Source: a bacterium HR40 (GTDB lineage: Bacteria > Pseudomonadota > Alphaproteobacteria > Geminicoccales > Geminicoccaceae). From it: a stretch of DNA of 64,000 nt. This document shows positions 4,432 to 47,511 of this stretch, piece by piece. How positions within the stretch are numbered: position 1 is the stretch's first letter; every line of letters begins with the position of its first letter. Under the pieces are notes generated by a model that searched no databases, was not told where the DNA came from, and saw nothing but the letters and a program-made list of their open reading frames with translations. The position numbers were made by a program, and so were the translations under genes. Location: positions 124,001 to 188,000 of the forward strand of contig BEIQ01000002.1 of NCBI GenBank assembly GCA_002898275.1. Direction: 5' to 3'.

Positions 4432-5436
4432 ATGCGCAGACTCCCGACAGCCACCGCGCTCGCCGCCCTCGTCATCGGCAGCAGCGTGGGATCCGCCGAG
4501 GAAGCCACCCTCGTGCGGATCGACGGCTCCAGCACCGTCTACCCGATCACCGAGGCGGTGGCCGAGGAATTCCAGAACGTCCATCGCGGCAAGTTCCGCG
4601 TCACCGTCGGCATCTCGGGCACCGGCGGCGGCTTCAAGAAGTTCTGCCGGGGCGAGACCGACATCTCGAATGCCTCGCGGCCGATCAAGGAGAGCGAGCG
4701 GCAGGCGTGCGCCCAGAACGGCGTCCAATACATCGAGGTTCCCGTTGCCTTCGACGCGCTCGCCGTCATGGTCAATCCAAAGAACGATTGGGTGGATTGC
4801 CTCACTGTCGAGGAACTCAAGAAGATCTGGGAACCCGAAGCCCAGGGCAAGATCGACCGGTGGAATGAGGTGCGGAGCAACTGGCCCGACCGCCCGCTCA
4901 ATCTCTACGGCGCCGGTACCGATTCCGGCACCTACGACTATTTCACTGCCGCTATCGTCGGCGAGGAAGGCAAGAGCCGAGGGGACTATACGGCGAGCGA
5001 AGACGACAATGTGCTCGTTCAGGGCATCGCCAACGACCCCAACGCTCTCGGTTTCTTTGGCTATGCCTACTATCGAGAGAACGCGGACAAGCTCAAGGCG
5101 GTGCCGATCCGCAATCCGCAGACCGGCCAATGCGTGGCGCCCTCGGTCGAGACGGCGCGCGACGGGACCTATCAACCGCTGTCGCGGCCGATCTTCATCT
5201 ACGTCAATGTGAAGTCGCTCGACCGCGAGGCGGTCGCCTCCTTCGTGGACATGTACCTCGACACCGATCGCATCGTCGACCTCGTCACGGAAGTCGGCTA
5301 CGTGCCGTTGCCCGAAGAGGCCTACGTCCTCGGCAAAGAGAACGTGGACAAGCGGCGCACCGGCACTGCCTTCCACGGCGGCTCGCAGATCGGCGTGTCG
5401 ATCTCGGATATCCTGGCCGCCGAAAGAAAGCTTTGA
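4432..5436 (+). CDS. pstS: phosphate ABC transporter substrate-binding protein PstS
   Basis: Periplasmic high-affinity phosphate receptor, 334 residues. A short signal peptide (residues 1-22, cleavage probably after GSAEE-type sequence) precedes the mature start [12 protein letters not shown], the classic PstS N-terminal phosphate-loop sequence. Further signatures are GTGGGFKKF (about residue 60-70) with [12 protein letters not shown], and [10 protein letters not shown] near residue 165, which contributes ligand contacts. GGAGGAGG lies 4 bases before the ATG at 4432, so the longer open frame reaching into phoR is not used. It is preceded by a Pho box. It delivers phosphate to PstCA/PstB encoded next. 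Confidence 0.96.
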
Positions 5437-44739: not shown

Positions 44740-45489
44740 TCAGCCGGCGGCGGAGCGAAAGCGGCTCGCCGGGTCCTCGCCCGCTCCTTGTCCAGCGGGC
44801 GATGCAGCGACCTCGTCCGGCTCCTTGAGCACATAGCCGCGACCCCATACGGTCTCGATATAATGCGGACCGCCCGTGAGCGCGGAGATTTTCTTGCGCA
44901 GCTTGCAAATGAACACATCGATGATCTTGAGTTCGGGCTCGTCGATGCCGCCGTAGAGATGATCGAGGAACATTTCCTTGGTGAGCGTCGTACCCTTGCG
45001 CAGGGACAGCAGCTCGAGGATGGCGTATTCCTTGCCTGTCACGTGCAGCCGCTTGCCCGCCACCTCGACCGACCGCGTATCGAGATTGACGACCAGCTTG
45101 CCCGTGCGGATCACCGACTGGGCATGCCCCTTCGACCGTCGCACGACGGCATGGATGCGGGCGAGCAGCTCGGAGCGGTCGAAGGGCTTGGTGACATAGT
45201 CGTCCGCACCGGTGTTGAGCCCTTGCACCCGGTCGCTGGTGTCCGTGCGACCCGAGAGGATCACCACGGGGGTGCGCACGCGGGCCGCCCGCAGCCGCCG
45301 CAGCACCTCCGTCCCGTCGATGTCGGGCAGCCGCAGATCGAGGATGATGACGTCGAAATCGTAGAGTTTCGCCAGCTCGATCCCGTCCTCGCCCCGCTCG
45401 CAGCTTTCATAGACGATGCGCTCGGCCGCAAGCGCCGTCTCCACGAGCCTGCGGGACACGGGATCGTCTTCGATCACAAGGGCACGCAT
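44740..45489 (-). CDS. ctrA: cell-cycle master response regulator CtrA
   Basis: OmpR-type regulator of 249 residues. Receiver: acidic residues E7-D9, phosphoacceptor Asp51 in [10 protein letters not shown] (same number as Caulobacter CtrA), Lys in TKPFDRSEL. The linker [20 protein letters not shown] and output [40 protein letters not shown] are almost identical to CtrA and not shared by other OmpR proteins. The C-terminal tail beyond EPDEVAA is longer than in Caulobacter. CtrA controls flagella, motility and cell-cycle genes. A CtrA box lies 67 bases upstream. Confidence 0.95.
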
Positions 45490-45555
45490 CGCCGACCACT
45501 CCTCATCTCGCGCCCGCCGACAGCCGCGCTACGCCTGCGGAATGCCACGCGACGC

Positions 45556-45570
45556 TTAAGCCTTCGTTAA
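45556..45570. promoter_or_regulatory. CtrA binding box between ctrA and fliI
   Basis: TTAA (45556-45559), seven bases, TTAA (45567-45570): an exact TTAA-N7-TTAA full CtrA site in GC-rich DNA where TTAA is rare. It lies 67-81 bases upstream of the ctrA ATG and about 77 bases upstream of the fliI ATG on the other side, so one site could serve autoregulation and the flagellar ATPase gene. Assignment is by consensus only. Confidence 0.75.
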
Positions 45571-45646
45571 TCCCGGGCGGCTAACTTGTCCTCGAACCGC
45601 CTGCGGGGGTGTGGGTCTCCTGGGGCGATACAACCATGCGTTGATC

Positions 45647-47062
45647 ATGGCCGCAAGTATGGGGTGTGCGAACGGTAAAGTTTACTCGCGGAAGTTGTGT
45701 CGGCCCCTCGTCACCGAAGCCGACCTCCAGCGGCTGAGCTCGGCTCTCGCCGACCTCGAGCCGCGCCGATTGCGCGGTCGGGTGCGCGCCTGCCTCGGCC
45801 AGAGTCTTGTCGCCGGCGGTCTCCACAGCTTCACCGCCCGGGGCGACATCTGTCGCATCGGCACCGACGACGGTCCCTTGTTGCTGGCGGAAGTGGTCGG
45901 TTTCGACGATGGCGGCGTGCGGCTCGTCGCCTACGCCGATCCCGCCGGCGTGGTGCGCGGCGCACCGGTCACCCTCGACCGCCGGTGGTCGGCGGTGCGT
46001 CCCCACACCAGCTGGCAGGGCCGGGTGATCGATGCCTTCGCCCGGCCGGTGGACGGTCTCGGGCCGCTGCCGCAGGGGCCCGAACCGCGGCCGCTGTTCG
46101 CTCCGCCTCCCGACGCCCTCGCGCGTCGGCCGCTGGGAGCGCGGTTGCGCACGGGTGTGCGGGCGCTCGACCTGTTCGTGCCCTGCGTGGAGGGCCAACG
46201 CCTCGGTTTGTTTGCCGGCTCCGGGGTGGGAAAGTCGACGCTGCTCTCGATGCTCGCCCGTCATGCCGAGGTCGATGTGGTGGTGGTAGGGCTCGTCGGG
46301 GAGCGCGGCCGCGAAGTCGGCGAGTTCCTCACCCACGCGCTCGGGCCCGAAGGCCGCCAAAGGGCCGTGGTCGTCGTCGCTACTTCCGACCAGCCGGCGA
46401 TGCTGCGGCGGCGTGCGGCCTATCTGACCCTGACGGTCGCCGAATGGTTCCGCGATCGTGGCGCCCGCGTCCTCTGTCTGCTCGACAGCATCACGCGTTT
46501 CGCCGCAGCGCTGCGGGAGATCTTCCTTTCGGCGGGCGAACTGCCGGCGACCCGCGGCTATCCGGCGAGCGTGTTCACCGAATTGCCGAGGCTGCTCGAG
46601 CGTGCCGGGCCCGGTACGGGAACGGGCACCATGACGGCGGTCTTCAGCGTGCTGGTCGAGGGCGACGACCCCAACGAGCCGATCTCGGATGCGGTGCGCG
46701 GCATCCTCGATGGCCATGTCGTGCTGGCGCGAAGGATCGCCGAACGTGGCCGTTTTCCCGCCGTCGACGTGCTCGCGAGCCTGTCCCGTGCGGCGCCCCG
46801 TTGCTATGCGCCCGACGAACGCGAGCTCGTCGCCCGTGCGCGGGCCCTGCTCGCCACCTACGAGAGCATGGCCGAGCTCGTCGAGATGGGCGCCTACGAG
46901 CGGGGCAGCAATCCCGAGCTCGAGCGGGCGATCGCGGTACGGCCAGCCATCGAGGCCTTGCTCGCCCAAGCCCCCGACGAGCCACCCACCGACGATCCTT
47001 TCGCCCGCCTCGCCGCGGCCCTCGCCGCTGCCGAAGCTGGAACGAGCGGGAATCGCCCATGA
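45647..47062 (+). CDS. fliI: flagellar type III export ATPase FliI
   Basis: Cytoplasmic ATPase of the flagellar secretion system, about 471 residues. It has the F1-beta fold: Walker A GLFAGSGVGKSTLLSML (about residues 185-200), VVVVGLVGERGREVGEF, Walker B region VLCLLDSITRFAAALREI and the family segment GELPATRGYPASVFTELPRL. Start uncertain: ATG 45647, ATG 45659 or GTG 45611; the N-terminus is a little longer than usual. The fliJ start overlaps its stop. No other flagellar genes are in the window. Confidence 0.93.
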   Translation: MAASMGCANGKVYSRKLCRPLVTEADLQRLSSALADLEPRRLRGRVRACLGQSLVAGGLHSFTARGDICRIGTDDGPLLLAEVVGFDDGGVRLVAYADPAGVVRGAPVTLDRRWSAVRPHTSWQGRVIDAFARPVDGLGPLPQGPEPRPLFAPPPDALARRPLGARLRTGVRALDLFVPCVEGQRLGLFAGSGVGKSTLLSMLARHAEVDVVVVGLVGERGREVGEFLTHALGPEGRQRAVVVVATSDQPAMLRRRAAYLTLTVAEWFRDRGARVLCLLDSITRFAAALREIFLSAGELPATRGYPASVFTELPRLLERAGPGTGTGTMTAVFSVLVEGDDPNEPISDAVRGILDGHVVLARRIAERGRFPAVDVLASLSRAAPRCYAPDERELVARARALLATYESMAELVEMGAYERGSNPELERAIAVRPAIEALLAQAPDEPPTDDPFARLAAALAAAEAGTSGNRP

Positions 47063-47511
47063 GGCGGGACCCGGTGCTCCGTCTCGCTCGCTTCCTCCGG
47101 CAGCGACTCGAGCAAGAACGTCTCGCCCTCGCCCGGGCGCAGGCGCGCCTGTCGGCCTGCGAGGGGACACTGGCCGCCCTGGAAGAGCGTTGGGCCTCGG
47201 ACGGCGAGCCGGTCGAGGCAGCCTGGCTCCTGCCCGTCGCCAGCTGGCGGCAGCGCCTCCTCCAGGAGCTCGCGCTCGCCCAGGAGCGGCGCCGGCAGGC
47301 CCTTGTCGAACGGCAACGCGCCGCCGACCGCTTGCGCGCCCGCTTCCGCCGCGCCGCGACTGTGGAGCGGCTCGTCACGCTCCTCGCCCGAGCCGAGGCG
47401 CAGGCGGCGGAACGGCGGCAACAGGCGGCCCTCGACGAGCTCTCCTCGCAGCGCGCCGCGGCAAGAGCTCGCACCCCTTCCTGTCCCCGAGGCGATGACC
47501 GGCGGACCTAG
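47059..47511 (+). CDS. fliJ: flagellar export chaperone FliJ-like protein
   Basis: A 150-residue protein that is almost entirely alpha-helical coiled coil, rich in Arg, Ala, Glu and Gln (LARFLRQRLEQERLALARAQ, RQALVERQRAADRLRARFRR). Sequence is poorly conserved in this family; the call rests on length, the coiled-coil character and the position directly after fliI with an ATGA overlap. FliJ activates the FliI ring and links it to FlhA. Confidence 0.75.
   Translation: MRRDPVLRLARFLRQRLEQERLALARAQARLSACEGTLAALEERWASDGEPVEAAWLLPVASWRQRLLQELALAQERRRQALVERQRAADRLRARFRRAATVERLVTLLARAEAQAAERRQQAALDELSSQRAAARARTPSCPRGDDRRT

Follow-up and report, generated by a model that had tools for sequence, protein, structure and literature searches.

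A probable CtrA box between divergent ctrA and fliI may drive two competing promoters arranged as mirror images

Between the divergent genes ctrA and fliI-fliJ of the Geminicoccaceae bacterium HR40, a 15-bp site, TTAAGCCTTCGTTAA, forms a perfect TTAA-N7-TTAA and is probably a working CtrA box that serves the promoters of both transcription units. The site lies in a 64-kb stretch of DNA (64,000 nucleotides of contig BEIQ01000002.1, hereafter referred to as the window), where its letters read exactly as a preliminary description of the sequence had claimed. In the mechanism that we propose, phosphorylated CtrA would bind the box and act in place of a -35 element in either direction, one predicted promoter facing fliI-fliJ with TAACTT as its -10 element and the other facing ctrA with CATTCC as its -10 element (Table 1). 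The two predicted starts are 62 bp apart, which would be too close for two polymerases to fit together; plausibly, then, polymerases compete at two promoters that mirror each other around the one box.

Table 1. Positions of the genes, the box and the predicted promoter elements in the window.
Feature	Position	Strand	Basis or remark
ctrA, response regulator transcription factor, 249 aa	44740..45489	-	NF045991, PF00072, PF00486
Predicted weak -10 CATTCC of the ctrA promoter	45539..45544	-	Mirror position; -11 A pairs with T 45543; start predicted near 45532
Probable CtrA box TTAAGCCTTCGTTAA	45556..45570	.	Pattern scan of window and genome; conserved in the family
Predicted -10 TAACTT of the fliI promoter	45582..45587	+	Spacing rule; A expected at -11 is 45583; start predicted near 45594
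fliI, flagellar export ATPase	45611..47062	+	Most upstream in-frame start used; true start uncertain
fliJ	47059..47511	+	PF02050, 34.8 bits (cut-off 28.4); overlaps the fliI stop (ATGA)

The site and its flanking genes

The perfect TTAA-N7-TTAA is the only one in the window, compared to 0.01 expected from dinucleotide-preserving shuffles (a perfect site appeared in 1 of 100 shuffled windows), and a scan of the 64 kb with up to one mismatch returned no further site. The window has TTAA at three places, 12624, 45556 and 45567, the last two being the halves of the box, and the ctrA-fliI intergenic region contains no TTAA outside it. Selective depletion of TTAA outside CtrA sites was considered and rejected, as the trinucleotides of the window predict 2.5 occurrences. 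Six perfect boxes are present in the whole genome (2.89 Mb, 8 contigs), compared to one match for a control pattern, which is the same pattern read backwards. No GANTC was found within 45480-45720; these CcrM sites have a role at ctrA of Caulobacter.

Profile searches agreed with the preliminary description that the box lies between divergent ctrA and fliI-fliJ. The ctrA product matches the CtrA equivalog NF045991 of NCBIfam (373 bits, cut-off 350) and is the only CtrA match of the genome at E 1e-80 or better. Among solved structures, the DrrD-type regulator 1kgs is its best match (E 2e-41); the CtrA receiver structure 4qpj is matched at E 1.8e-36. The same genome encodes a ChpT phosphotransferase (PF10090, C1:712854-713219, 29.6 bits, cut-off 22.9). 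The fliI product belongs to the FliI/YscN family (TIGR01026, 452.9 bits, cut-off 379.5), and its best model, TIGR03498 for FliI clade 3, scores slightly under its cut-off (573.9 compared to 587.45 bits). In-frame start candidates of fliI are GTG 45611, TTG 45641, ATG 45647, ATG 45659 and TTG 45695; 121 bp separate the ctrA ATG (45489) from the most upstream of these. Other flagellar genes had been placed elsewhere, and this holds for the two that we located: flgB (C1:679 kb) and flhA (C1:564 kb) lie on contig C1, as does the ChpT gene, and the window belongs to contig C2.

Conservation of the neighbourhood and of the box

We searched for CtrA (E 1e-80 or better) in 60 genomes, i.e. the window's own, 30 of the same family and 29 from other families of the class, and then searched the extracted loci with FliI. 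A CtrA match was present in 48 of the 60 genomes (28 of 31 in the family, 20 of 29 outside), and fliI diverges from ctrA at no fewer than 21 family loci, window included, and in at least 11 of the 20 families outside it in which CtrA was matched, one of which (G057) was counted through a partial FliI match. Both counts are lower bounds, as ctrA lies close to a contig end in some genomes. No fliI was seen alongside ctrA at three family loci of the window's type (G003a, G008 and G017a), a second ctrA lineage alone was found in G006, G012 and G025, and G020 (L034) was excluded, its CtrA match starting at residue 43 at a contig end. Judging from these loci, the ctrA-fliI neighbourhood is old. A literature search covering titles and abstract openings returned no description of it, which is not a claim that none exists. 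Its occurrence in 11 of the 20 other families fits the idea, put forward in PMC8116508 along with the statement that CtrA controls flagellar genes in every order studied, that control of motility may have been the first role of CtrA.

Raised by the preliminary description as a point to check, conservation of the box in relatives with the same arrangement is borne out. A perfect box is present at 10 of the 21 divergent family loci and a box with at most one mismatch at 20, compared to 0.04 and 0.71, respectively, expected from shuffles that keep dinucleotides. The sole locus without a box at this threshold is G009a, and the one-mismatch sites of G019a and G010a lie closer to fliI. Where fliI was not seen, the box is perfect in G008 and G017a and has one mismatch in G003a. 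Since it persists at ctrA in these three loci, the box goes with ctrA, and autoregulation would be the better conserved half of the proposed function.

The second ctrA lineage, with no fliI seen alongside, serves as a negative control: none of its 11 loci carries a perfect box and one carries a one-mismatch site. Its 11 rows form a clade of their own with 100/100 support in a CtrA tree from which 7 of 56 rows had been dropped because they were short or had stops within the alignment, and in which G004b is a long branch. The lineage was found in 11 family genomes (L127, L128, L133, L136 and L139-L145), with 54-66% identity to the window's CtrA. Although the case for function is made from sequence evidence, a chance match without function is extremely improbable, and we rejected it on the rarity of the site in the window and on its conservation relative both to the shuffles and to the second lineage.

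Enrichment of the box across whole genomes does not generalize. In three genomes of genus g2 the box outnumbers the control pattern (20 vs 2, 23 vs 0 and 15 vs 1), but in 8 of the 31 family genomes the control pattern is as common as the box or commoner. We therefore dropped enrichment as a general argument, and our case rests on the position and conservation of the box. Outside the family, six loci have a TTTAC-N6-TTAA site closer to fliI, four of them (G031, G037b, G034 and G058) with CA at the same distance; G032 and G050 have several sites at a background-like level, and single sites weigh less in A+T-richer genomes.

Promoter spacing on the two sides of the box

A spacing rule was derived from boxes other than those between ctrA and fliI. 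The sample consisted of 40 boxes: all that remain once the ctrA-fliI box is set aside in the window's genome (5), G001 (19) and G007 (4), plus 12 of the 22 remaining in G015, each read outwards both ways to give 80 directions, which are not independent since orthologous boxes from related genomes are among them. A pyrimidine followed by A (YA) starts 11 bases past the box in 33 of the 80 directions (TA in 23 and CA in 10; background 6.5%), and the next position is an A in 41 of the 80 (background 18%). This offset was noticed first and counted afterwards; in three of the four genome sets none of the other 49 offsets equals it. It is occupied by YA in 7 of 10 directions in the window's genome (P = 5e-7, for an offset picked once the data had been seen; the maximum among the 49 others is 3 of 10), in 14 of 38 in G001, in 10 of 24 in G015 and in 2 of 8 in G007, where the rule is not significant and another offset gets 4. 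Boxes elsewhere in the window's genome and in a related genus thereby repeat the spacing found at the window's box. The elements with YTA at this offset include GCTATCCT, GCTAGAGT, GTTAGCCT and similar ones. We read them as -10 hexamers, the second base of which would correspond to the A reported as invariant at position -11 of the CtrA-dependent promoters of R. sphaeroides (PMC6180460).

By side, YA is missing at both ends of 14 of the 40 boxes, present at one end of 19 and at both ends of 7. Boxes reading both ways were rejected as an enriched class, the 7 observed being close to the 6.8 expected for independent sides ((33/80)^2 x 40). Half-site polarity, inspected by eye, gave no clear pattern as a guide to direction. 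In this family, the rule itself (box, 11 bases, pyrimidine-A) would be of use for predicting which genes CtrA targets and in which direction.

At the window's box, the direction of fliI reads TCCCGGGCG-GCTAACTT, with TA at the rule position, and the direction of ctrA reads GCGTCGCGT-GGCATTCC, with CA at the rule position, so that the two A's (45583 and the partner of T 45543) are each 20 bases from the centre of the box, one per side. The fliI-side -10 is the better of the two; the ctrA-side hexamer is weak, with a C at a position usually held by T. Of the two arms in the window, that of fliI is clear and that of ctrA weaker. We compared it with the family loci that are divergent and have their box near ctrA (18 including the window; G009a, G019a and G010a not counted). 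YA occupies the rule position on the fliI side in six of them, i.e. the window (G000), G007, G014, G026, G018 and G013a, and on both sides in three, the window, G018 and G013a, so that 2 of the 17 others are symmetric. It is lacking on the fliI side in 12 of the 17 others, and CtrA control of fliI through this box may therefore be confined to some genera.

On the ctrA side, many relatives carry something that the window lacks. CTTAAGG, with its TA one base later than the rule, is present in 12 of the 20 other family boxes (12 of 21 with the window) and is followed by TTAC in 11 of those 12. A conserved TAACCTTAAG block stands in the interval between box and ctrA of 12 family relatives, with TTAA 36-53 bp from the ctrA start. 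This block, which the window has lost or never had, may combine the ctrA -10 and a CtrA half-site overlapping it. The family seems to have retuned the ctrA-fliI promoter region more than once.

These patterns bear unequally on the two sides. It is unlikely, if worth keeping in mind, that the box serves ctrA autoregulation only, with fliI expressed from a promoter of its own further downstream and the fliI-side -10 a coincidence. Retention of the box upstream of ctrA where fliI was not seen is in keeping with such an arrangement, as are the 11 of 20 other family boxes that have CTTAAGG on the ctrA side and no fliI-side YA at the rule distance (G007 being alone among the 12 in having both), and a TACAAYCA block of several fliI leaders could belong to another promoter. 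Against this, the fliI side of the window has GCTAACTT exactly at the offset learned from other boxes, where the background of YTA is about 1% per position, and G018 carries GCTATCTT at the same place. The converse arrangement, in which the box would activate fliI only and ctrA would have a promoter independent of it, finds some encouragement in the weakness of the window's ctrA-side -10 and in the missing CTTAAGG, but we hold it to be highly improbable: the box stays at ctrA where fliI was not seen, and in Caulobacter crescentus and Hyphomonas neptunium CtrA is reported to interact with the promoter region of its own gene (PMC7200025).

Two further features of the fliI leaders came to our attention. 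By eye, TACAAYCA recurs in several of them about 70-80 bp beyond the start of the box (45629-45636 in the window); in G007 and G014 it is followed by a stop codon in the fliI frame, and a second promoter or some regulatory site may lie there. A repeated ATGCAACC, downstream of that block, was mostly set aside as a binding site, since by eye it is likely the fliI start in several relatives.

A shared box could also act with opposite signs, CtrA repressing one side and activating the other as at flgB/fliO of Caulobacter. This has a precedent in that shared site, where CtrA is described as activating fliO and repressing flgB (PMC6180460), and the extra TTAA of the CTTAAGG relatives sits at the would-be ctrA -10 in 12 of the 20 other family boxes, a position that the same source links with repression in Caulobacter. 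The extra TTAA is absent from the window, and both of its candidate -10 elements stand at the distance found at other boxes. We consider repression of one side quite unlikely here; because it is a form of the shared box, its chances are not additional to those of our preferred reading but overlap with them.

The reading that we prefer, a box serving both promoters, agrees with the preliminary description in combining CtrA autoregulation with direct control of flagellar export, which conservation and promoter spacing make the best account of the locus. It parts from that description over the "simple local circuit", as the genome has five more such boxes. Autoregulation and fliI control together are favored by both arms following the spacing, but their support is unequal, the fliI-side spacing recurring in 5 of 17 other loci. 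Moreover, two promoters mirrored around one box should be mutually exclusive, and joint activation thus cannot be assumed. In E. coli, polymerases are reported to compete at bidirectional promoters once one side is strongly activated (PMC12825309); given this and the closeness of the predicted starts, a trade-off would be expected more than joint activation. We put forward, tentatively and with the balance of our judgment against it, a stronger version in which ctrA and fliI form a mutually exclusive mirror pair on one box, the balance of which the family has retuned by gain or loss of a -10 on either side; it draws on CTTAAGG in 12 of 20 other boxes and on the symmetry of the -10 elements in the window and two further genera. 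If this were true, a polymerase starting ctrA could not start fliI.

Other boxes of the genome and known CtrA-dependent promoters

The other boxes of the genome place the site in a wider setting. One lies between divergent csrA and flgB (C1:679338-679352, L116, box at 5339); csrA was identified by PF02599 (57.7, cut-off 27; TIGR00202 gave 60, under its cut-off of 70.1) and flgB by PF00460 at its cut-off (20.7), the NCBIfam FlgB models scoring under theirs. This single csrA/flgB box has YA at the rule distance on both sides in the window's genome, G001 and G015 (L116, L182 and L175). Further boxes precede a Flp pilin gene (PF04964, 73.3, cut-off 32.2), a gene for a nuclease-like protein (PF00565, 28.7, cut-off 21) and one for a small membrane protein of 57 aa (C3:371743-371757, L117; also L176), which is 40% identical over 40 residues to a G001 protein behind a box. 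The box at C5:52506-52520 (L118) precedes a crotonase gene (PRK08788, 267, cut-off 177) whose product also resembles the DSF synthase RpfF, though far under the cut-off of that model (163.9 compared to 550), and whose side lacks the YA spacing. A box also precedes a similar gene in G001 and G015 (L184 and L171), a hint of possible CtrA control over a fatty-acid signal synthase. In G001, boxes stand before csrA/flgB and before genes for a crotonase and a small protein that resemble those of the window's genome, and a G007 box precedes Flp pilin. From sequence, the box set of the genome is a flagellum-and-pilus profile, as expected of CtrA, and since the ctrA-fliI box is one of six, with others at csrA/flgB and Flp pilin, fliI looks like part of this regulon.

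Bidirectional promoters of E. coli have their symmetry in core promoter elements, whereas the symmetry proposed here would come from an activator box plus a -10 on each side. The two are alike in that one pseudo-symmetrical stretch drives, or here would drive, divergent transcripts (PMC12825309). Closer to our case is fliF2p-fliL2p of Rhodobacter (Cereibacter) sphaeroides, where mutagenesis led to the conclusion that one CtrA site activates both divergent promoters; the single site near -35 and the A at -11 are shared features, but both genes are flagellar there and the arrangement was tested by mutation, while here one gene is ctrA and the promoters are predicted (PMC6180460). The same source infers single CtrA sites between fliI and flgB in some Rhodobacterales. 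In flgBp-fliOp of Caulobacter crescentus a CtrA site is likewise common to divergent promoters, although one is activated and one repressed and the genes differ from ctrA and fliI (PMC6180460). Caulobacter ctrA is described as having two promoters, P1 and P2, with opposite responses to CtrA (PMC6180460), unlike the one box shared with fliI in the window. Divergent CtrA promoters with a single site, and CtrA at its own promoter, are thus already known; what is particular here is that ctrA would share its box with a flagellar operon. The locus offers a clean and testable example in which one binding site would tie a regulator gene to one of its targets.
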